A stretch of 32,601 nucleotides of DNA from Caulobacter sp. (GTDB taxonomy: Bacteria; Pseudomonadota; Alphaproteobacteria; Caulobacterales; Caulobacteraceae). Shown here in pieces: positions 4,850-31,966 of the stretch. How positions within the stretch are numbered: the first letter of the stretch is position 1; the number at the start of each line of letters is the position of its first letter. The notes beneath the pieces are model-generated. The model searched no databases and was not told the origin of the DNA. It saw only the letters and a program-made list of their open reading frames with translations. The stretch is taken from NCBI GenBank assembly GCA_030652755.1, contig JAUSPV010000268.1, forward strand, positions 1 through 32,601, given 5' to 3'. Both the position numbers and the translations under genes were made by a program.

Positions 4850-6283
4850 TCAGTCGCCGCTGAGCCGCAGCGCGATGCGGCAGCGCAGGCCGTCGGGATC
4901 GAAGGCCATCGTCGTCTCGCCGTCCATGTCGACCTGGATCGACCGCTGGATCAGGCGCGAGCCGAAGCCATGGCGGGTCGGGGCCACCACGGTCGGGCCG
5001 TCGCTTTCGCGCCAGTCCAGCGTCAGCCGTCGCCCGCCGACGTCATCGCGCGTCACGCTCCAGGTCACCCGCACGCATCCGTCCGGCGTCGACAGGGCGC
5101 CGTACTTGGCGGCGTTGGTGGCCAGTTCGTGGGTCACCAGGGCGAAGGTCAGCGCCTCCTGCGCCGACAGCTTCACGAGCGGACCGTCCAGCCTGTAGCG
5201 CGCCGCGCCGTAGGGGCTGAGCTCGAGGCCCAGCAGCTCGTCGAGCCGCGCGCCTTCCCAGTTGGCCGAGGTCAGCACGTTGTGAACGCCCGACAGCGCC
5301 ATCAGCCGGGCCTCGAAGGCGGCGCGGAAGGCGACCGGATCGGGCGTGGCCCGCACGGTCTGGGCGGCGATCGACTGGACCGTGGCCAGGGTGTTCTTGA
5401 CCCGGTGGTTCAGTTCGTCGAGCAGCAGCTTGCGCTGTTCCTCGGCCCGCACGCGCTCGGTGACGTCCGAGCCCTCGACGAAGATGCCGATGACCGCCCC
5501 CTCGGGGTCGCGGATCGGCTGGTAGATGAAGTCCAGGAACCGCTCCTCCGGCACGCCGCCCGGAACGCGGACGAGGGTGACCGGCGCCGACAGGCCGACG
5601 TAGGGCTCTCCGGTCCGGAACACCGTGTCGAGCAGGTCGTAGAAGCCCTGGCCGGCCAGTTCGGGCAGCGCCTCCGCGACGGTCTTGCCGAGGATGTCGC
5701 GATGGCCGATCACCTGCTGGTAGGCGGCGTTGCTGAGGGTGAAGACGTGGTCGGGCCCCGACAGCACCGCCATGAAGCCCGGCGCCTGCATGAACAGGTC
5801 GCGCAGGCCGGCGGTCTCGCGCTGCAGGGTGCGGCTGGCGGTCTCCGCCTCGCGGGCCCGCTGCAGCAGGTCCGTCTCGCCCGGCAGCGGCCCGGCCTGT
5901 TGGCGCAGCCGGTGCAGTTCGGTCACATCGACGGTGTTCTGCATCACGAAGGCGACCTCGCCCGAGGCGTCGCGCACCGGCGTGTGCACCGCTGTCCAGT
6001 AGCGCCGCTCGACGCCCTCGCCGGTGCGGATGTCGTAGGGGATGAAGGCCAGGGTGTCGGGCTGGCCGGTGTCGAGCGCCCCTTGCAGCGAGGTGCGCAG
6101 ACGCTCGCCGTTCTCCGGGTCCGGGAACAGATCGAACAGATGGGCGCCGATCAGTTCCTCCCGCGAGCGGAAGACCGCCGCCTCGTAGGCGGCGTTGGCC
6201 TCGACGTAGCGCAGCTGCCGGTCGAGAACCATGTACGGACTGGGCAGGGCATGGAAGAGCGCCCCGAAATCAAGATCTGCCAA
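4850..6283 (-). CDS. PAS-PAS HWE-family sensor histidine kinase
   Basis: A soluble two-component sensor kinase of about 477 aa. PAS 1 spans about 8-122 and PAS 2 about 163-275, joined by a helical segment. The phosphoacceptor is His293 in LLLDELNHRVKNTLATVQSIA. The N-box is THELATNAAKYG (384-395), the W-x-E signature is DWRESDG (Trp424, Glu426), and GFGSRLI is the G-box. His plus W-x-E define the HWE family, common in Alphaproteobacteria and often light-, stress- or redox-sensing. No membrane segment or receiver domain is present and no response regulator is adjacent, so it is an orphan kinase. I chose TTG at 6283 (preceded by GGGGG) because the frame extends upstream without PAS homology and into the divergent gene; GTG at 6298 is an alternative. 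Confidence 0.9.
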   Translation of the reverse strand: MADLDFGALFHALPSPYMVLDRQLRYVEANAAYEAAVFRSREELIGAHLFDLFPDPENGERLRTSLQGALDTGQPDTLAFIPYDIRTGEGVERRYWTAVHTPVRDASGEVAFVMQNTVDVTELHRLRQQAGPLPGETDLLQRAREAETASRTLQRETAGLRDLFMQAPGFMAVLSGPDHVFTLSNAAYQQVIGHRDILGKTVAEALPELAGQGFYDLLDTVFRTGEPYVGLSAPVTLVRVPGGVPEERFLDFIYQPIRDPEGAVIGIFVEGSDVTERVRAEEQRKLLLDELNHRVKNTLATVQSIAAQTVRATPDPVAFRAAFEARLMALSGVHNVLTSANWEGARLDELLGLELSPYGAARYRLDGPLVKLSAQEALTFALVTHELATNAAKYGALSTPDGCVRVTWSVTRDDVGGRRLTLDWRESDGPTVVAPTRHGFGSRLIQRSIQVDMDGETTMAFDPDGLRCRIALRLSGD

Positions 6284-6449
6284 GCAACCCCCACGCACGC
6301 GCGCCTCGGTCCAAATGCGCGCGGTGCGGGGCTGGTTGCAAGCCTGTCGGCGCCCAAGCCCCTCTGGGCATCCGCCCGGCCGCACAGCGCTGGCGCGAGC
6401 GGGTATTTCGATGCATCCTGTGACTGTGCGGGGCGGGCGGGGATCACCC

Positions 6450-7385
6450 ATGCGGCGCTGGTGGTGGGTCAATCACACGCCGATGGCGCGGCGCGAGATC
6501 GCCGGCGGCTATCTGTGGTCGCCGCGCACCGAGCGGGGCGGCGCGCGCAGTCCCTTCTACGACAACATGCGGCGTGCGGGGCCCGGCGACCTCATCGTCT
6601 CCTACACCGCCGGGCGCCTGCGCCACGTCGGCCGGGTGCTGGACTACGCCCTCGCCGCCATTGAGCCCGACGGAGACCGCGAGGGCTGGTGGCTGCCGGT
6701 GCGCTGGACGCCGCTGGAGCCGTCGGTCAGCCCGCGCGAGGTGATCGCCGCCCTGGGCCCGCTGATGCCGGGTCGCTACGCGCCCATCGATCCGGCCACG
6801 GGCCTTGGCCGGCAGAAGGCCTATCTGACCGAGATCGGCGAGGCCGCGTTCGAGGTCGCCGTCGCGCCCGGCCGCTTCGACCGCGCGGCGCTGGAGCGGG
6901 ACCAGGCCCCGGCGCTGGAGCCGCCGCCGGCCGTGCGGGACCTGGACGCGGCGCTGGAACAGGCCATCGTCGCCGACCCGGCGCTCAGCGCGACGCAGAA
7001 GGCGCAGCTGGTCATCGCCCGGCGGGGGCAGGGCGTGTTCCGCGACAACGTCCGGGCGCTGGAGCCGGCCTGCCGCGTCACGGGCGTGGCCAACCCCTGG
7101 CTGCTGATCGCCAGCCACATCAAGCCCTGGCGGGCCTGCGCCACGGCGGCCGAGCGGCTGGACGGCGCCAACGGCCTGCTGCTGACGCCGCACGTCGATC
7201 TGCTGTTCGACCGGGGCTTCATCAGTTTCGAGGCGGAAGGGACGGTGCTGGTCTCGCCCCGGCTGGCGGCGGCCGATCTGGCCCGGCTGGGCCTGCGCGG
7301 CCTGGGCGCTCGCGGCGTGCGGCCGTTCGCGGGGCGCCAGACGGGGTATCTGGAATGGCACCGGCGGTGGGTGTTTCTGAGTTGA
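6450..7385 (+). CDS. HNH endonuclease with EVE/PUA-like N-terminal domain, 311 aa
   Basis: The first 65 residues (MRRWWWVNHTPMARREIAGGYLWSP..., then RRAGPGDLIVSYTAGRLRHVGRV) look like an EVE/PUA-type domain, which in other proteins recognises modified bases. The C-terminal part (about 185-260) carries an HNH nuclease module: ACRVTGV, ASHIKPW (His223), NGLLLTPHVDLLFD (Asn241, His248). This resembles restriction-like or defence HNH enzymes that may cut modified DNA. No methyltransferase lies beside it, so a modification-dependent (type IV-like) role is an inference only. ATG 6450 is taken as start because WWWVN homology begins there. It is divergent from the sensor kinase with 166 bases between. 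Confidence 0.83.
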   Translation: MRRWWWVNHTPMARREIAGGYLWSPRTERGGARSPFYDNMRRAGPGDLIVSYTAGRLRHVGRVLDYALAAIEPDGDREGWWLPVRWTPLEPSVSPREVIAALGPLMPGRYAPIDPATGLGRQKAYLTEIGEAAFEVAVAPGRFDRAALERDQAPALEPPPAVRDLDAALEQAIVADPALSATQKAQLVIARRGQGVFRDNVRALEPACRVTGVANPWLLIASHIKPWRACATAAERLDGANGLLLTPHVDLLFDRGFISFEAEGTVLVSPRLAAADLARLGLRGLGARGVRPFAGRQTGYLEWHRRWVFLS

Positions 7386-8027: not shown

Positions 8028-8468
8028 TCAGGCCTTCGAAGGCCGCTGCAGCAGCTCGACCAGATAGCCGTCCGGGTCCTTGGCGAACCCGACCACGGCC
8101 CCGCCCAGAGTGGCGATCGGCGTCGGCTCGCGCACGATCTCCAGACCGTCGGCGCGGATGGCCTCGGCGGCCGCCGTCGGGTCGGGAACGTAGAGGACGA
8201 TCTTGATCGGGTTGTCGGCGTAGTTGCGCACCGACCCGTCCGTCCAGTGCATCAGCACCAGCGCCGACCCCCGCCCCTCGAACCCGACGACGATCTCGTC
8301 CATGTAGTCGAGCTTGAAGGTGGTGATGACCTTCATGCCGAGCACACGGGTGTAGAAGTCGGCGGAGCGGGCGAGGTCCGACACGCCGACGCCGACGGCG
8401 CCGATGTAGGCGGTGGGGGCCGGGGTGGTTGTGGGGGTGGCCGTGGTCGTGGTCGTGGCGGTGGTCAT
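8028..8468 (-). CDS. VOC family (glyoxalase I-like) protein, 146 aa
   Basis: A single VOC module: AYIGAVGVGVSDLARSADFYTRVLGMKV (20-47), MDEIVVGFEGRGSALVLMHW, KIVLYVPDPTAAAEAIRADGLEIV and GFAKDPDGYLVELLQ. The final Glu in YLVELLQ is at the usual metal-ligand position, so it resembles lactoylglutathione lyase-type enzymes; the substrate is not known. The first 19 residues are an odd low-complexity run of Thr with Ala and Pro (MTTATTTTTATPTTTPAP) that lies outside the fold. It reflects short repeats in the DNA and may be an extension or a start-site error, although no better internal start is seen. Confidence 0.88.
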   Translation of the reverse strand: MTTATTTTTATPTTTPAPTAYIGAVGVGVSDLARSADFYTRVLGMKVITTFKLDYMDEIVVGFEGRGSALVLMHWTDGSVRNYADNPIKIVLYVPDPTAAAEAIRADGLEIVREPTPIATLGGAVVGFAKDPDGYLVELLQRPSKA

Positions 8469-8911: not shown

Positions 8912-8949
8912 GCTCCTTGAGGGTCCTTGAGCAAGGCCCCTCAAGGAGC
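8912..8949. repeat. Hairpin-forming inverted repeat before the DUF3883 gene
   Basis: GCTCCTTGAGGG (8912-8923) and CCCTCAAGGAGC (8938-8949) are perfectly complementary 12-base arms. Inside them CCTT-GAGC-AAGG can extend the stem after one mismatch. No T-run follows, so it is not a standard terminator. It would lie in the 5' region of the downstream gene and could be a regulatory hairpin or a small mobile palindrome. Confidence 0.6.
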
Positions 8950-8979
8950 AAACTCTCCGACAAGGCATCAGGGAGAGGG

Positions 8980-9870
8980 ATGGTTGAGGCCCTGGTCGTG
9001 AGGTGCGTTCTGGGCCATCGTCTGCGCGTGGCGGGCAATGAAGAAATCGAAGGAACCGACTGGTCGGACGCTGAGCAGGATCTCATCGTCGCTGACTACT
9101 TCGCCATGCTCGAGGCCGAGTTGGCGGGGCAGCGGGTGAACAAGGCCGAGCGCAACCGGGCGCTTCAGGCGCTGACCGGCCGCAAGCGCGGCTCGATCGA
9201 ATACAAGCATATGAACGTGTCGGCGGCGCTCACGCGGATCGGCCTGCCGACCATCGACGGCTACAAGCCGTATCAGAACATTCAGGACTCCCTGATCGAC
9301 GCCATTGACCGCTATCTGACCAGTCGGCCGGCGCTGCTGCAGCCCCAAGCGCCGCCGCCGCTCGTGGGTGTCGCGGAACGGGCGGTTCTCTTCACTGAAC
9401 CTCCGCCTCTGCGTGGCGACAGACCGGCGCCGGAGCGCCGCCGCATGGAAGCGCTGGTCCGCAAGTTCGACCCGGTAGAGCGCGACTTCCGCAACCGGGC
9501 GCTCGGCAAGGCCGGCGAAGCGCTGGTGGTGGAGTTCGAGGAGCGGCGGCTGCACGACGCCGGCCGCAAGGACCTGGCCCAGCAGGTGCGCTGGGTCGCC
9601 GACCTCGAGGGCGACGGCCACGGCTACGACATCGCCTCCTTCGCACCGTCCGGCGAGAAGCGGCTGATCGAGGTCAAGACCACCAACGGCGGCCAGACCA
9701 CGCCCTTCTTCCTGACCCGCAACGAGGAGCGGGTGTCCCGAGAGACGGAGGCGTTCCGCCTCTACCGACTCTACGACTTCACCAGAGCGCCGAGGCTGTT
9801 CAAGCTGCGCCCGCCGCTGGGCGACAGCGTGGTGCTGGAAACGGAGACCTGGCGGGTAGGGTTTGGGTGA
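8980..9870 (+). CDS. DUF3883 (PD-(D/E)XK nuclease-like) domain protein, about 296 aa
   Basis: The C-terminal half matches the DUF3883 pattern: ALGKAGEALVVEFEERRL (about 175-191), GHGYDIASF (Asp217), RLIEVKTTNGG (Glu231, Lys233) and PFFLTRNEE (242-250). The E/D...D...ExK arrangement is that of PD-(D/E)XK nuclease folds, and DUF3883 is frequent in defence and mobile loci. The N-terminal half (TDWSDAEQDLIVADYFAMLEAE) is a conserved region of unknown role. ATG 8980, preceded by GGGAGAGGG, is the best start; GTG 9028 is possible because homology seems to begin near residue 25. It is co-directional with the three-Cys and TcmP genes, but a separate promoter region follows it. Its target is unknown. 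Confidence 0.8.
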   Translation: MVEALVVRCVLGHRLRVAGNEEIEGTDWSDAEQDLIVADYFAMLEAELAGQRVNKAERNRALQALTGRKRGSIEYKHMNVSAALTRIGLPTIDGYKPYQNIQDSLIDAIDRYLTSRPALLQPQAPPPLVGVAERAVLFTEPPPLRGDRPAPERRRMEALVRKFDPVERDFRNRALGKAGEALVVEFEERRLHDAGRKDLAQQVRWVADLEGDGHGYDIASFAPSGEKRLIEVKTTNGGQTTPFFLTRNEERVSRETEAFRLYRLYDFTRAPRLFKLRPPLGDSVVLETETWRVGFG

Positions 9871-9906
9871 TCCCGCAGCGGACAAAATTCCTATGCGAGG
9901 CGTTAT

Positions 9907-9921
9907 GTTCTTGCTATGTTC
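9907..9921 (+). promoter_or_regulatory. LexA (SOS) box GTTC-N7-GTTC
   Basis: GTTC (9907-9910), seven bases, GTTC (9918-9921). This is an exact match to the direct-repeat LexA operator of Alphaproteobacteria (GTTCN7GTTC), distinct from the E. coli palindrome. It sits in a locally A+T-rich stretch 78 bases before the ATG of the three-Cys-motif gene, with -10-like TATGTT sequences overlapping it, which is the expected position for repression. Confidence 0.75.
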
Positions 9922-9999
9922 CCACAACTAGGCGTTGGCGCCGAGCTTGCGTTGTGGAGAGCCTTCAGGATGTCGCACTCAGGAGTTCGAGTAAGGCGC

Positions 10000-10743
10000 A
10001 TGGCCGAAACTTCCATCGAATGGACCGACGCGACGTGGAACCCCGTCGCGGGCTGCGCAGTCATCACGCCGGGCTGCACCAACTGCTACGCGATGCGCAT
10101 GGCGGCGCGTCTGGAGGCCATGGGCGTCGAGAAATACCAGGGCCTGACGCGCAAGAGCGGTGACCGCTACGTCTGGACGGGCAAGGTGAAAGTCGACGAG
10201 GCGTCGCTCGAAGCGCCGCTCGCTTGGCGCAAGCCCCGCAAGATCTTCGTCAACTCGATGTCGGACCTCTTCCACGCCGACGTGCCCGAGGATTTCATCG
10301 TTCGGGTCTGGGACGTGATGCGCCGGACGCCCCAGCACACCTATCAGATCCTGACCAAGCGCCCGGAGCGGATGCGCGAGGTGGTGTCGCGGATTGCCGA
10401 GTCAATCTTGCCTAACGTGTGGCTGGGGACCAGCGTGGAGGACTCGGCGGTGCTGGATCGACTGGACGATCTGCGCGGTGTGCCGGCGCATGTGCGGTTT
10501 GTATCGTTCGAGCCGCTGATCGGGTCGGTAGCCGGGGCTGACCTCAGTGGGATCGGCTGGGCGATTGTAGGCGGCGAGTCTGGTCCCCGCGCTCGGCCGA
10601 TGAATGAGGCATGGGTCGATGAGATCAGGCTTCGCTGTGCGGTGGCCGGTACGGCATTCTTCTTCAAGCAGTGGGGCGGCAAGAACAAGAAGGCGGCTGG
10701 TCGAACTTACCAAGGACGTACTTGGGACGAGTTGCCCGCCTAG
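10000..10743 (+). CDS. Three-Cys-motif protein, phage Gp37/Gp68 family (DUF5131), 247 aa
   Basis: The protein opens MAETSIEWTDATWNPVAGC and has the three-Cys motif Cys19-x6-Cys26-x2-Cys29 (GC...PGCTNCYA). Other family blocks are KIFVNSMSDLFHADVP (81-96), ILTKRPERM (117-125), VWLGTSVED (140-148), VSFEPLIG (168-175), VGGESGPRARPM (190-201) and FFFKQWGG (220-227). These identify DUF5131. The clustered cysteines could bind an Fe-S cluster or zinc, and a radical-SAM-like TIM barrel has been suspected for the family; neither is shown here. ATG 10000 has GTAAGG upstream and begins at family homology; a longer frame from 9916 would start within the LexA box. Its partner tcmP follows 89 bases later. 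Confidence 0.92.
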   Translation: MAETSIEWTDATWNPVAGCAVITPGCTNCYAMRMAARLEAMGVEKYQGLTRKSGDRYVWTGKVKVDEASLEAPLAWRKPRKIFVNSMSDLFHADVPEDFIVRVWDVMRRTPQHTYQILTKRPERMREVVSRIAESILPNVWLGTSVEDSAVLDRLDDLRGVPAHVRFVSFEPLIGSVAGADLSGIGWAIVGGESGPRARPMNEAWVDEIRLRCAVAGTAFFFKQWGGKNKKAAGRTYQGRTWDELPA

Positions 10744-10783
10744 TTTCTTTGCAATCATAGAGAGAATCTGGCCCGATCCCTTG

Positions 10784-10808
10784 CGAGGCGCGTGTCATTC
10801 GCGCCTCG
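10784..10808 (+). repeat. Intercistronic hairpin between the three-Cys gene and tcmP
   Basis: CGAGGCGCG (10784-10792) and CGCGCCTCG (10800-10808) form a perfect 9-bp stem with a 7-base loop. No T-run follows, and the tcmP ribosome site begins 13 bases later, so it may set mRNA stability or the relative expression of the two genes, not stop transcription. Confidence 0.5.
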
Positions 10809-10832
10809 ATGGGCTTGATACAGGAGGCCGGG

Positions 10833-11996
10833 ATGGTTGCTGACATCAGTAGGTATGCCGGGCGCGAACAGGCCTACATCAAGCACTATTTCCTAGAGAA
10901 CTATCTCGAGAAGCTCATTCATAAAACCGCTGGGCGGTTCGATCACATCGCTTACGTCGATGGCTTCTCAGGGCCTTGGCAGAATAGCGATGAGAACTTC
11001 GAAGACACCTCCTTTGGGATTGCGCTTCGGGCGCTTCGGACTGCCAAGGCCTCCTGGAAGACCCTCGGCCGTGACGTTCGCATGTCGGCCTACCTCGTCG
11101 AAAAGTCGGCGTCCGCCCACGCTAAACTTGCTGCAATCGCGGCGCGTTTCCCCGACATTTCCATCGTTACCTACAATGGAGACTTCGTCGCCACGTCGCC
11201 ACGACTGCTTGCTGACATTCCCGCGGATGCATTTGCGTTTCTATTCATCGACCCCAAAGGATGGAGGATGCGCACGCAATCGATTAGCGGCCTCCTGAGG
11301 CGCCCGAATTCTGAAGTCGTGTTCAACTTCATGTTCGACTTCATCAATAGGGCAGCTTCGATGGCAGACCCTGAAGAAGGCCTCAACGAACTGATGCCCT
11401 ACGGAAGCTGGAAGGCGGGGTTGGGAGCCATCGATCGGCGGGCACCCACGGCATCGGCGCAGCGCAAGGCGGTGCTGGTGGCGGCGTTCTCGGAAACCCT
11501 CCGGAGGATCGGCGACTATGATTACGTAGCCGAGACCCCGGTCATGCGGCCTCTGGTCGATCGAACACTCTATTCGCTGATCTACGCGACAAGAAAGGCG
11601 GCTGGCATTGAAGTCTTTCGAGACTGCCAGATCAAAACCCTTCAGGAGCAAGCCTCGGTGCGGGGGATGGCGAAGGTCGCCCAGACGCAAAGCCGAAGTG
11701 GACAAGGCGAGATGTTCGCATCGGCCGGCGATATGGCATCAGACGGGATCGAGGAATATCTTGCCAGCGAACGAGAGGCAGCGAAACAAGCCCTTCTCGC
11801 CAGCGTCCCGGTTCAGCCGGAAGCGGTGATCTACGGCGAAGTCTGGCCTCAGATTCTGTCAAAGCACGCCGTTAGAAAGGTCGACCTGAACGCGTTGGCC
11901 GGCAGCCTTAGGAAATCCGGGGGCATCGTCTTTCCCGATTGGGTGCCTAAGAAGCGAGTGCCCGACGATGAGTACCGGATGAGTCGGCCAGCGTGA
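10833..11996 (+). CDS. tcmP: Three-Cys-motif partner protein TcmP, 387 aa
   Basis: This is the protein family habitually encoded beside DUF5131 three-Cys proteins. The N-terminal 175 residues have the order expected of the family: REQAYIKHYFLENYLEKLI (11-29), YVDGFSGPW (41-49), AYLVEK (86-91), YNGDF (114-118), FAFLFIDPKGW (134-144) and EVVFNFMFDFINR (161-173). The glycine loop, acidic end of strand 2 and DPxGW motif resemble a Rossmann methyltransferase core, so a nucleotide or SAM-binding role is an inference. The start is fixed by AGGAGG at 10822-10827, five bases before ATG 10833. Base composition is visibly less G+C-rich than lepA next door, a sign of transfer. It converges on lepA with 12 bases between the stops. 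Function is not established. Confidence 0.9.
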   Translation: MVADISRYAGREQAYIKHYFLENYLEKLIHKTAGRFDHIAYVDGFSGPWQNSDENFEDTSFGIALRALRTAKASWKTLGRDVRMSAYLVEKSASAHAKLAAIAARFPDISIVTYNGDFVATSPRLLADIPADAFAFLFIDPKGWRMRTQSISGLLRRPNSEVVFNFMFDFINRAASMADPEEGLNELMPYGSWKAGLGAIDRRAPTASAQRKAVLVAAFSETLRRIGDYDYVAETPVMRPLVDRTLYSLIYATRKAAGIEVFRDCQIKTLQEQASVRGMAKVAQTQSRSGQGEMFASAGDMASDGIEEYLASEREAAKQALLASVPVQPEAVIYGEVWPQILSKHAVRKVDLNALAGSLRKSGGIVFPDWVPKKRVPDDEYRMSRPA

Positions 11997-12008
11997 ACTG
12001 AGCTCCCC

Positions 12009-13814
<1,806 letters not shown>

Positions 13815-13874
13815 GCGCGCCCGTCTAGCACATTGGGCGGCCAAGGCGAGACCCGCGCGGCGGCGTGCGAGGCA

Positions 13875-13916
13875 TTCGCAGTTCGCACTTGCGAAAGGTG
13901 TCATGATCCCTAGATA
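13875..13916 (+). promoter_or_regulatory. Promoter with overlapping palindromic operator for the RND efflux genes
   Basis: TTGCGA (13889-13894), a 16-base spacer and TAGATA (13911-13916) form a plausible sigma-70-type promoter. TTCGCA-CT-TGCGAA (13882-13895) is a perfect 6+6 palindrome covering the -35, and a further TTCGCA half-site lies at 13875-13880. This is the layout of a repressor operator, TetR- or MarR-like in form. No regulator gene is adjacent, so the repressor would be encoded elsewhere. Confidence 0.5.
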
Positions 13917-26018: not shown

Positions 26019-27947
26019 CTAGCCCGGCGGATTGTGTGTCTGCAGGAAGGCCAGCGTGGCCTCCAGCATCCGCAGCCGGGTCTCGCCGCGCGCCAGATCG
26101 TGGTCCTCGCCCTTCAGCGTGACCAGATCCACGCTCTTGCCGGCCCGCTTCAGCGCTTCGGCGAAGAGCGCGGACTGCTCGTAGGGCACAACGGTGTCGT
26201 CCTTGCCGTGAATCAACAGGATCGGCGCGTCGGCCCTGGCGGCGTGGCGCAGGGGCGAGATCTCGTCGAGCGCCGGATCGTTGCGGCCGCCGCCCATGAA
26301 TCGCGTCCAGTACCGGGTCGTCTCGCTCTTCTCGCCATAGCGGTTGGCGCTCCAGGTGAGCATCCGGCGAAGGTCAGAGACGCCGGCGACCGCCACCGCG
26401 CAGCGATAGTGGCCGGGATCCAGCGTCGGTCCGGCCATGGCCGCGTAGCCCCCGTAGCTGCCGCCGACGATGGCCACGCGTCCGGGGTCGATGATCCCCG
26501 CGGCGGCCAGCGCCTTCACCCCGTCCGACAGGTCGGTCTGCATCCTGCGGCCCCATTGGCCAAAGCCCGCCTGAAGATGCTCCAGGCCCTGGCCGGTCGA
26601 TCCGCGGAAGTTTGGCTGCAGGACGGCATAGCCCCGCGAGGCCAGCGCCTGGGCCCACCAGTCGAAGGTCAGTTCATTGTGTGACGCCGGCCCGCCGTGC
26701 GGGAGGACGATCAGCGGCAGGCCCTTCGCGGACGACAGCCCGGGCGGCAGGGTCAGGTAGCCCGGGATGTCGAGGCCATCGGACGCCTTGTAGGCATAGG
26801 GCTTGATCTCGCCGATCCAGTCGGCGGTGACCAGGGGCCAGGCCTCGCCGACCAGATCGGCCCGCCGCGCATCGAGATTGACGAGGTAGTAGGCGCCCGA
26901 ATTGGCCGCGCCCTCGACAAAGACAACGATCTTGCGGCTGTCCGCCGACCAGGCCTGCGGGAAGACCCGCTGTCCCTTGAAGGTCTTCTGCACGCTCTCC
27001 CAGGAGGCCTTCCGCACCGGCTCGAAGTAGTCGAACCGGCTGTAGTCCTCGAACCACATTCCGCCGATCATCCGCGACGAGCGGGCATGGCGCAGGATCG
27101 CCCGGTAGGCCCGGCCCGACGGGATGGCCAGGCGCGCGCCGCCGTCCGCCTTCACCTCGACGTACTCGTAGCCCTCCTCGTCGAACACCGAGACGACGGC
27201 CCCCTGGCCATCGGCGGTCAGGGCTTCGAGCCAGGGCCTGTCCAGCAGCGCCCTGCGCTGGAAGACTTCCGGCCAGATGCCGCCCCGCCGCAGCGCGACG
27301 GCGAACATGCCGCTGGACTGGTCGTAGCGGGACCTGGCCACCGCCTCGCCCGACTCCGACACCATCCAGTTGCCGGTCTCGGGGTTGGCCGAGTCGATGA
27401 TGGCGACCGCGCCGTCGGTGACGGCGATCCGCGCCAGCACGATCTGCGTCGACGTGCCCAGGGTGATGACCGTGCAGTAGGCGAAGGCCTTGCCGTCGAT
27501 CACCCGGATCTCCGGCACGCGCAGCACAAAGCCCAGCGCCCTGGGAACGCGGCTGGCCAGCTTGATGAAGCGCTTCCGGGAGAGGCTGTAGGTCTGGGCC
27601 GAGTAGAATTCGCTCAACGGCAGGCCCAGTTCCGGGGCGGCGGTTGTGCGGGCGGTGGTCACGACGATGTCGTCGTTGCCGGCCCACTGGATGTCGATGA
27701 CCTTGGCGTCGTCCAGGCCGATGACCCCCAGCAGCGCGCCGTCGATGGTCTGCAGCACAAGCCGCCGGGCGTCGCCGCTGACGCCGATGAAGGCCAGCCG
27801 CGTGGCGTCGTCGGACAGGGCGACCTGCTCGATGGCCGGCAGGGCGCCCCAGCCCGACAGGGGCGGGGCCGTCCGGGCCAGGCTTGTCGATGCGCCGCCC
27901 AGCCCCAAGGCCATGGCCGCGCCCGCGCTGAACTCACGCCGATTCAT
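26019..27947 (-). CDS. S9 family serine peptidase (prolyl oligopeptidase type), Tat-like signal, 642 aa
   Basis: An alpha/beta-hydrolase peptidase that cleaves short peptides, with an N-terminal beta-propeller (about 40-370) and a C-terminal catalytic domain. The triad is Ser497 (GGSYGGY), Asp584 (HGKDDTVV) and His616 (GEDHD). The oxyanion region is LPHGGPASH. The N-terminus MNRREFSAGAAMALGLGGASTSLA has a twin-arginine RRxF and a hydrophobic core, suggesting Tat export. ATG 27947 is used with GGGGGC upstream; a TTG one codon earlier is less likely. It is a paralogue of the gene at 29996-31966. It is closest to acylaminoacyl/dipeptidyl-peptidase-like S9C enzymes; exact specificity is not predictable. 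Confidence 0.93.
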   Translation of the reverse strand: MNRREFSAGAAMALGLGGASTSLARTAPPLSGWGALPAIEQVALSDDATRLAFIGVSGDARRLVLQTIDGALLGVIGLDDAKVIDIQWAGNDDIVVTTARTTAAPELGLPLSEFYSAQTYSLSRKRFIKLASRVPRALGFVLRVPEIRVIDGKAFAYCTVITLGTSTQIVLARIAVTDGAVAIIDSANPETGNWMVSESGEAVARSRYDQSSGMFAVALRRGGIWPEVFQRRALLDRPWLEALTADGQGAVVSVFDEEGYEYVEVKADGGARLAIPSGRAYRAILRHARSSRMIGGMWFEDYSRFDYFEPVRKASWESVQKTFKGQRVFPQAWSADSRKIVVFVEGAANSGAYYLVNLDARRADLVGEAWPLVTADWIGEIKPYAYKASDGLDIPGYLTLPPGLSSAKGLPLIVLPHGGPASHNELTFDWWAQALASRGYAVLQPNFRGSTGQGLEHLQAGFGQWGRRMQTDLSDGVKALAAAGIIDPGRVAIVGGSYGGYAAMAGPTLDPGHYRCAVAVAGVSDLRRMLTWSANRYGEKSETTRYWTRFMGGGRNDPALDEISPLRHAARADAPILLIHGKDDTVVPYEQSALFAEALKRAGKSVDLVTLKGEDHDLARGETRLRMLEATLAFLQTHNPPG

Positions 27948-28014
27948 CAAAGCCCCCGGATACCCGCGAACAACCTATCCGCGCGTAGGGCCGACGGGCA
28001 AGGGCTCTCGCCCG

Positions 28015-29995: not shown

Positions 29996-31966
29996 TCAGT
30001 CCGGCGGGTTGTGCCTCAGCACGAAGGCCACAGACGCCTGGAGCATGGCGATGCGGGTCGTCTCGCCCGACAACCCGTGATCCTCGCCCTCCAGCACCAC
30101 CAGCTCCACCGGTTTGCCCGCCGCCTTCAGCGCCCGTTCCATGCGCCGGCTCTGCTCGATCTTCACCACCGTGTCCTCCTTGCCGTGGATCAGCAGGACC
30201 GGCGCGTCGGCGCGGGCGGCGAGCTTGACCGGCGAGACGGCGTTCAGCTCGCCGACCCAGCCCGGGCGGTCCGCGCCCAGGAAGGCGCGCCAGTAGCGAA
30301 CGCCGGCGTTGCGGCCGCCGGTGTCGGCGATCTCGCTCTCCAGCATGTAGACGGGGTCGGCGACGCCGGCGACGGAGATCGCGCAAGCGTAGAGGCCGTT
30401 CTGCACCGTCACCCCGGCCAGCGCCGCGTAGCCGCCGTAGCTGGACCCGACGATGCAGGCGCGGCGGGCGTCGACGATCCCCTCCCGGGCCAGGGCGGCG
30501 AGACCGTCGCTGATGTCGGTCTGCATCTTGCGGCCCCATTCTCCCAGGCCGGCGTCGCGGAACGTCTTGCCGTAGCCGCTGGAGCCGCGAAAGTTGGGCT
30601 GGAACACCGCGTAGCCGCGGGCGGCGTAGGCCTGGGCCCACCAGTGAAAGCCCAGGTCGTCGAACCCTTCCGGTCCGCCGTGCGGCAGGACCACGACCGG
30701 CAGCCCCCGGGCCTCGCGTCCCGGCGGCAACGTGAGAATGCCCTCCATGGCCAGGCCGTCGGCGGCGGCCCAGGCGAAGCGGCGGGTCTTGCCGACCTTC
30801 GACGGCGTCACCCGGGGATAGGCCTCGCCAAGCGGATCGGCCTTCAACGCCTTCAGGTCGACCAGCCAGTAGCTGCCCGAGTCATCGCCGCCGTCGGTGT
30901 AGACCACCACCCGGTCCTGCGAGGCGGAGGCCGACATCACCCACGGCCGCTTGCCGCTGAAGGCGCGGGCGATCTTGTCCATCTGCGCCTGCCGCGCCGG
31001 GTCGAAATAGACCGTGCGCCGGTTCGCGCCGGCGACCGCGTAGCCGACGAGAAGGTTGCTGTCGTGCTGGTAGAGCGGGGCGTGGAAGACATCGCCGGCC
31101 CCGACCAGCGGCGGGCCCACCGTTCCGTCAATCAGCGACAGCTCGCGGGCGTTGGGGGAGCCGTCCTCGCCCCATACGCCCAGCAGGATGGTGTCACGGG
31201 AGCGGCCCAGGCCATAGACCGCCACCTCGCCGAACGGTTCGACACCGCTGGCCAGGACGGCGGCCGACTCGCCGCGCGTCACCGACCAGGCGCCCGTCCT
31301 GGCCGAGTAGGACGCGCGCGCCGCCACTACCCCGCCGTCCATCACCCAGCTGAAGGTGTCGGGCCGTCCCTTGTCGACCAGCATGATTTCGCCGGTCTCC
31401 AGGTCGATCCGGAACAGGTCGGGAAAGTAGTCGGCGAACTCGACGTCGCCCGCGACCATCCGGCGGGTCTGCTCCAGGGTCGAGAAATAGCCGTAGTCAC
31501 GACCGCCGAGGCGGGCGGTTCCGAACCGCCCCATGATCACGTCCCAGCTCTTGGTGGCCCGGCCGAAGATCGGCGTGGTCTTGCGGGTCTCGACGTCGAG
31601 CACGAAGCCGGCCGTGTACTCCGCCGCCGGGACGTCGACGGCCAGCCGCCGCTGCTCGCTGATCAGGAAGATGACGAACCGCTCGCCGCCCCAGTAGAGG
31701 CCGCGCAACCGCTTGTCGGCCAGCGGCACCACCGCCAGCGGCTGGCCGGCGACGGTGCGCACGAACAACTTGCGCCCCTCGCCGTCGCTGGCCACGAAGG
31801 CGAGACGCTCGCCCGACGGGGAGAGATCGACCCGGTCCATGGCCGGCAGTCGGCCATAGGCCTCCACCGGCGGCGGCTCGGGCGGCGCGGGCAGCGCCTG
31901 GGACGTCCAGCCGAGCGCCAATCCGGCGACCAGCGCACACACCGCCGCGATCCTGACCATCCCCAC
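29996..31966 (-). CDS. S9 family serine peptidase (prolyl oligopeptidase type), secreted, 656 aa
   Basis: A paralogue of the peptidase at 26019-27947. Same two-domain layout, with the triad Ser509 (GSSYGGY), Asp598 (HGKEDTVV) and His630 (GEDHGLSG), the block LPHGGPEGFDDLGFHWWAQAYAARGYAVFQPNFRGSSGYG, and the same terminal HNPP. The N-terminus VRIAAVCALVAGLALGWTSQALPAPP is a Sec-type signal peptide, unlike the Tat-like signal of the paralogue, so the mature enzyme should be periplasmic. GTG 31966 has GGGAG at good distance; ATG 31960 two codons later is an equal alternative. Likely an acylaminoacyl/dipeptidyl-peptidase-like enzyme for peptide scavenging; specificity unknown. Confidence 0.93.
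   Translation of the reverse strand: MGMVRIAAVCALVAGLALGWTSQALPAPPEPPPVEAYGRLPAMDRVDLSPSGERLAFVASDGEGRKLFVRTVAGQPLAVVPLADKRLRGLYWGGERFVIFLISEQRRLAVDVPAAEYTAGFVLDVETRKTTPIFGRATKSWDVIMGRFGTARLGGRDYGYFSTLEQTRRMVAGDVEFADYFPDLFRIDLETGEIMLVDKGRPDTFSWVMDGGVVAARASYSARTGAWSVTRGESAAVLASGVEPFGEVAVYGLGRSRDTILLGVWGEDGSPNARELSLIDGTVGPPLVGAGDVFHAPLYQHDSNLLVGYAVAGANRRTVYFDPARQAQMDKIARAFSGKRPWVMSASASQDRVVVYTDGGDDSGSYWLVDLKALKADPLGEAYPRVTPSKVGKTRRFAWAAADGLAMEGILTLPPGREARGLPVVVLPHGGPEGFDDLGFHWWAQAYAARGYAVFQPNFRGSSGYGKTFRDAGLGEWGRKMQTDISDGLAALAREGIVDARRACIVGSSYGGYAALAGVTVQNGLYACAISVAGVADPVYMLESEIADTGGRNAGVRYWRAFLGADRPGWVGELNAVSPVKLAARADAPVLLIHGKEDTVVKIEQSRRMERALKAAGKPVELVVLEGEDHGLSGETTRIAMLQASVAFVLRHNPPD

Follow-up and report, generated by a model that had tools for sequence, protein, structure and literature searches.

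Does the SOS response control the gene pair formed by DUF5131 and tcmP, and if it does, what would the two products do there? The question is raised by a 32,601-nucleotide contig of a Caulobacter sp. (JAUSPV010000268.1, assembly GCA_030652755.1; this whole stretch is referred to here as the window), in which a DUF5131 gene followed by tcmP stands downstream of a match to the LexA motif GTTC-N7-GTTC. A reading of the sequence alone had proposed that this box, 78 bases ahead of the DUF5131 ATG, puts the pair under SOS control. The exact box is present as claimed (Table 1), and, judged by its sequence and its recurrence, it is very probably a LexA operator that would be bound by LexA and would bring the window locus under SOS control. 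The box starts 93 bases from the conserved ATG at 10000; translation may instead begin at an in-frame ATG at 9970, and both starts are kept in a related genome (G278) whose DUF5131 is 92% identical to that of the window and which likewise has a box upstream of DUF5131, in the same place.

Within the window, the bare pattern is not significant, since at least one match occurs in 41 of 100 shuffled windows (mean 0.48). This is the first point in favor of the notion that the box is a chance match or a relic and that the pair is expressed independently of LexA, a notion which we nevertheless regard as very improbable. The box becomes significant because of its interior bases and its recurrence in relatives. 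Scored with a matrix built from 28 boxes of PA0069-family radical-SAM (S-adenosylmethionine) genes, it ranks fourth among the 98 sites of its own genome, at 28.2 bits, and 7 Mb of first-order Markov sequence contain no site that scores as well; this matrix assumes a base composition, and its training set includes the PA0069 box of the same genome. The 98 whole-genome matches to GTTC-N7-GTTC compare with 34 for the reversed pattern, and the box of G278, at the same place, also speaks against an accident. In the accessible parts of PMC12700426 and PMC4211646, GTTC-N7-GTTC is given as the LexA motif for Caulobacter, and the former describes GTTCttgttatGTTC at two early C. crescentus SOS genes studied under mitomycin C; the window box, GTTCTTGCTATGTTC, is one base apart from it. 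A scan of 9800-12050 found no sigma-70-type promoter, and an Rfam search gave no match over the gathering score.

Elsewhere in the source genome (G000), lexA is matched at C65:3243-3935 on the minus strand (TIGR00498, 178 bits against a cut-off of 110.95), and a GTTC-N7-GTTC site at C65:3993-4007 precedes the matched lexA start by about 58 bases, in the opposite orientation. No recA match over cut-off was found in this genome (best 28.5 bits), which is rated 99.99% complete; the missing recA is probably an assembly gap. The genome's PA0069-family gene has a box of its own, GTTCTTGTTATGTTC, one base different from the window box. In the window's family, 126 of the 149 genomes searched have a PA0069 match, and a LexA-type box is present at 28 of the best 30 PA0069 loci (L257-L286). 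LexA sites at splB, a spore-photoproduct-lyase homologue, are reported for alpha- and betaproteobacteria in the part of PMC3323433 that was available. The PA0069-type gene is probably this LexA-regulated splB, and SOS control of it is then probably known already rather than new; the published splB supports a place for such enzymes in the alphaproteobacterial SOS response.

How general is the box at DUF5131? Loci were drawn from 299 genomes of the window's family (41 with a match), from 385 class-wide genomes (54 with a match) and from named genomes (the best 80 of at least 585 loci). From 163 nonidentical rows, 154 remained after five non-alphaproteobacterial loci (L131, L146, L150, L151, and L153) and four fragments (L199, L203, and two of L204) were dropped. 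TcmP was recognized by a purpose-built profile in the fetched stretch of 116 of these 154 rows, with flanks that reached at most 1.5-4 kb and sometimes ended at a contig edge, such that a distant TcmP could be missed. A forward box lies within 200 bp upstream of DUF5131 at 29 of the 116 loci with TcmP and at none of the 38 without it, and within the same distance upstream of TcmP in 7 of 124 stretches. As a control, eleven anagrams of GTTC gave 0-3/116, 0-1/38, and 0-2/124, and spacings other than 7 gave 0-2 of the 116 DUF5131 genes with TcmP; together with the matrix rank, these controls led us to reject a chance origin of the window box. Boxes are found at both genes, at spacing 7, and in many branches of the DUF5131 tree, on which the box state changes at least 22 times and hence has often been gained or lost. 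In the window's own DUF5131 clade, five of six rows carry the box, one (L075) in reverse orientation; in another clade it is carried by 11 of 14 rows, and ten rows of that clade have a forward box 25-34 bases before the profile-inferred DUF5131 start. The distance from box start to ATG is 17-39 in 18 of 31 forward-box rows, so that the 93 bases of the window could be taken for a relic's spacing, but distances of at least 59 occur in 12 of the 30 rows other than that of the window. A broken pair at L204 (G017:C1 ~463125-465037) consists of pieces with stop codons, yet a LexA-type box still precedes its DUF5131 start by about 30 bases.

From the perspective of SOS control of the pair, several observations cut the other way. 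With 200 bp examined, 79 of the 116 pair loci have no exact box, a point also in favor of a chance or relic box; the interpretation offered by the sequence-only reading is supported in part. With either orientation and either gene counted, the box is found at 37 of 116 pair loci and at 1 of 38 loci without TcmP (Fisher p 6e-5), and the samples give, in the same order, 15/27 vs 0/19 (class-wide), 13/65 vs 1/3 (named), and 9/24 vs 0/16 (family). The simple conclusion, that box and TcmP go together, had to be rejected, since the contrast mostly reflects short versus long DUF5131 proteins. All 116 DUF5131 proteins with TcmP are 247-270 aa long, whereas 31 of the 38 without it are long (283-386 aa); among the loci without TcmP, none of the 31 long genes and one of the 7 short genes have the box. 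The contrast among short proteins only, 37/116 vs 1/7, is not significant (p 0.30), and five independent tree contrasts show no link between TcmP and the box. What stands is that short, TcmP-type DUF5131 genes carry LexA-type boxes far above control patterns, and that long ones do so in none of 31 cases.

The association of the two genes themselves, listed as known in the sequence-only reading, is borne out. TcmP is over cut-off in 29 of the 385 class-wide genomes, and all 29 have DUF5131; in another six, TIGR04474 is matched below the cut-off only, and DUF5131 is absent. On the other side, 25 of the 54 DUF5131 genomes in this sample have no TcmP over cut-off. Pairing is thus close to obligate on the TcmP side. 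The arrangement varies: co-directional, convergent, TcmP-first, and divergent arrangements were all found. Three convergent pairs (L082, L097, and L111) have a separate box at each gene, and three TcmP-first loci (L126, L159, and L184) have the box at TcmP, with six of the nine TcmP-first loci boxless. Among open reading frames (ORFs) of at least 130 aa in the fetched flanks, no neighbor besides TcmP recurs in more than five loci. A common neighboring ORF at L078, L079, L083, and L090 resembles, by eye, the DNA-repair protein RadA.

The pair extends well beyond this class, to plasmids, phages, and chromosomes of several phyla; co-directional or convergent pairs lie on plasmids of Pseudomonas, Streptomyces, Micromonospora, Nocardia, and Deinococcus and in Gordonia and Synechococcus phages. 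The non-alphaproteobacterial records scanned contain no convincing LexA-type site, a further point against SOS control as such. Neither the alphaproteobacterial motif nor GAAC-N4-GTTC was found in the 250-300 bp upstream in 10 plasmid and phage records (L225-L230 and L232-L235, of which L235 lacks TcmP and encodes a long DUF5131) or at four gammaproteobacterial loci (L146, L150, L151, and L153), a set that leaves aside a Bacteroidota plasmid locus (L236). Single CTG-N10-CAG matches in L228, L230, L146, and L153 were judged, by position and sequence, to be chance. The alphaproteobacterial box is also missing at DUF5131 of two alphaproteobacterial plasmid loci, L224 from S. meliloti and L231 from Leisingera. 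On these records, we reject the idea that the pair is generally under LexA control; SOS control looks like a connection made in alphaproteobacteria to a module of wider distribution. In three convergent pairs, the 3' ends of the two genes overlap (Streptomyces plasmid L226, 5744-5747; Gordonia phage L228, 5728-5738; Synechococcus phage L227, 6702-6747).

Which chemistry would be brought under this control? The C-x6-C-x2-C cluster noted in DUF5131 is present, at C19, C26, and C29, and the guess that it holds Fe-S is strengthened to that of a radical-SAM enzyme by the fold and by the alignment of the cysteines with the CxxxCxxC of PA0069 radical-SAM proteins. The predicted structure is a barrel of the radical-SAM type whose closest fold match is spore photoproduct lyase, followed by viperin about 2 Z lower. 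On the strength of this model, we assign DUF5131 to the radical-SAM class with high confidence, the cluster and the cleavage of SAM being predicted along with it. Conservation was read from an alignment of 106 sequences, including the window protein, out of 159 eligible (Table 1). The DUF5131 profile had no match among PDB sequences. Spore photoproduct lyase (SplB) itself has the motif CxxxCxxC, and we know of no methyltransferase partner for it; it is 12-13% identical to DUF5131 in model alignments. Lacking CxxxCxxC, DUF5131 is similar to spore photoproduct lyase in fold and is not filed as a member. The PA0069/Rv2578c proteins (NF033668 and NF038135) are remote homologues with aligning Cys clusters but form a family separate from DUF5131; the PA0069 gene of the source genome likewise has a LexA-type box. 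The radical SAM mobile pair A/B (TIGR04471/TIGR04470) is matched by DUF5131 at A (68 bits) and by PA0069 at B (89 bits), both far below the cut-offs of 355 and 410, and has a different partner.

For TcmP, the motifs DGFSGP, LVEK, NGDF, and FIDPKGW and the AGGAGG ahead of the gene are all there as read from the sequence. The suggestion that these are methyltransferase motifs gains from a profile match to RlmJ, a 23S rRNA methyltransferase (PF04378), in which motif I, GSPLIA, and the DP region align, but the match to RlmJ chains is weak (E 0.017). RlmJ has DPPY where the window TcmP has DPKG, and TcmP has an added C-terminal part. The RsmJ model is matched by two of 89 TcmP members at E up to 0.1, not including P0002; the 89 aligned sequences, with the window protein among them, come from 126 eligible. 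From such motifs, TcmP probably belongs to the methyltransferase class and would have that activity. The likeness to RlmJ also brings up RNA modification: the joint target of DUF5131 and TcmP would be tRNA or rRNA, which RlmN (radical SAM) and RlmJ also modify, and SOS induction would serve to adjust or repair RNA under stress. We consider this unlikely.

Table 1. Positions of the box, the gene pair, and neighboring or related features (window coordinates unless a locus is named)
Feature	Position	Strand	Evidence
LexA-type operator GTTCTTGCTATGTTC, putative operator of DUF5131	9907-9921	+	GTTC-N7-GTTC match
DUF5131 gene, 247 aa, radical-SAM-like	10000-10743	+	PF07505 327.3 bits (gathering cut-off 28.9)
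Three-Cys cluster codons C19-x6-C26-x2-C29, predicted [4Fe-4S] site	10054-10086	+	Each Cys in 106/106 aligned sequences
C213 codon; this fourth conserved Cys lies apart from the cluster	10636-10638	+	105/106 sequences
AGGAGG, ribosome-binding-like site of tcmP	10822-10827	+	
tcmP, 387 aa, putative RlmJ-like methyltransferase core	10833-11996	+	TIGR04474 129.5 bits (cut-off 53)
DGFSGP, putative SAM-binding-like motif I of TcmP	10959-10976	+	D43 and G47 invariant in 89 sequences; aligns with RlmJ DTHAGAGRY
FIDPKGW, putative motif IV-like segment of TcmP	11244-11264	+	D140 invariant in 89 sequences; aligns with RlmJ IDP
NOV_C-domain gene, PADLOC PDC-S36, start uncertain	8917-9870	+	PF13020 67.8 bits; PDC-S36 356.3 bits
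HNH endonuclease gene	6231-7385	+	PF13391; PADLOC HNH 71.6 bits; sub-cut-off match to phosphorothioated-DNA restriction enzyme
PA0069-family radical-SAM gene	L020 401-1486	-	NF033668 503.7 bits; own box GTTCTTGTTATGTTC

Put together, these elements suggest a scheme in which DNA damage would activate RecA, LexA would be cleaved, and DUF5131 and, in many arrangements, TcmP would be derepressed. DUF5131 would carry a [4Fe-4S] cluster on C19, C26, and C29, cleave SAM, and perform radical chemistry on a nucleic-acid substrate; TcmP, taken as a class I methyltransferase resembling RlmJ and often bearing a winged helix at its C terminus, would act on the same substrate. The two would jointly repair or modify damaged nucleic acid and would travel as a two-gene cassette. 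That the pair is such an SOS-induced repair or modification module is a tentative proposal, to which we give slightly less than even weight. Still more doubtful, though possible, is its most specific form, a mobile SOS-induced direct-repair system in which a divergent spore-photoproduct-lyase-like enzyme and a methyltransferase dedicated to it would undo a DNA lesion or else mark the damaged DNA. Several points weigh against these proposals: the C-x6-C-x2-C spacing departs from the canonical CxxxCxxC as far as the sequence goes, a common fold with spore photoproduct lyase reveals no substrate, TcmP resembles RlmJ only weakly, and PADLOC classes the pair as a phage-defense candidate.

This last point introduces the main rival. 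In PADLOC-DB, both genes are modeled as phage-defense candidates, PDC-M30 and PDC-M41, likewise two-gene systems in which the B part is DUF5131 (321-349 bits) and the A part is TcmP-like; to PDC-M30A, the window TcmP matches weakly (38.4 bits). As an anti-phage module, the pair would take SOS induction as its warning of infection, DUF5131 acting like an antiviral radical-SAM enzyme or modifying nucleic acid with TcmP as its partner. Viperin, which makes chain-terminating nucleotides, is the second fold match of DUF5131, and a PDC-S36 gene, also from the PADLOC candidates, is a neighbor. On the other hand, spore photoproduct lyase fits better by the margin given above, and phages themselves carry the pair, though phages can carry defense genes too. 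Candidate status in PADLOC is a prediction: in the accessible text of PMC10855318, PDC-M30 is a candidate predicted by 'guilt-by-embedding', and there, as in that of PMC11878078, it is named in counts only. The resistance figure, too, is a correlation, taken across strains that carry many systems. Defense is a possible role for the pair but a doubtful one. Repair or modification is modestly favored over it because the best fold match is to spore photoproduct lyase, because SOS control is probable, because the regulon also includes a related gene of the radical-SAM type, and because phages carry the pair; our confidence that the role is damage-linked repair or modification rather than phage defense is evenly balanced.

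No assigned function for the DUF5131-TcmP pair was found in the literature searched, which leaves most subscription papers outside; within it, DUF5131 is named in no paper, and strict combinations of terms returned no matching paper. TcmP occurs in tables of PMC12445080 and PMC12429752, and the available text of the former mentions both TcmP and lexA, the latter solely as an expression yardstick. LexA-type operators at one or both genes and the confident spore-photoproduct-lyase-like fold of DUF5131 lead to two claims open to testing, namely, that damage induces the pair and that radical chemistry is performed on nucleic acid. If defense is the answer, a defense candidate would be wired to the SOS response; if repair is, direct repair would gain another enzyme, one that works with a methyltransferase. 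To our knowledge, no earlier radical-SAM branch of the SOS response with a partner enzyme has been described. Direct repair would place the pair next to the LexA-regulated splB described in the part of PMC3323433 at hand, as a second radical-SAM arm of the SOS response in alphaproteobacteria.

As to the local setting, PDC-S36, DUF5131, and tcmP lie between a glyoxalase gene (8028-8468) and lepA (12009-13904). In a genome with a 96% identical LepA (G179), the same slot is about 690 bases long and holds, by eye, two small ORFs (region L318 3300-4480). Other loci in which the pair has lepA nearby are L222 (G278), L075, L040, and L148, and PDC-S36 also lies beside DUF5131 in L222, L040, and L075, although it is not needed for the pair. 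From these comparisons, the glyoxalase-lepA interval looks like a site of variable content into which cassettes are inserted. Farther upstream, the HNH gene is possibly a restriction enzyme for modified DNA. At the other end of the window, two similar long minus-strand ORFs (26019-27950 and 29996-31966), S9-type-peptidase-like in the ORF list, flank a transporter-like ORF.
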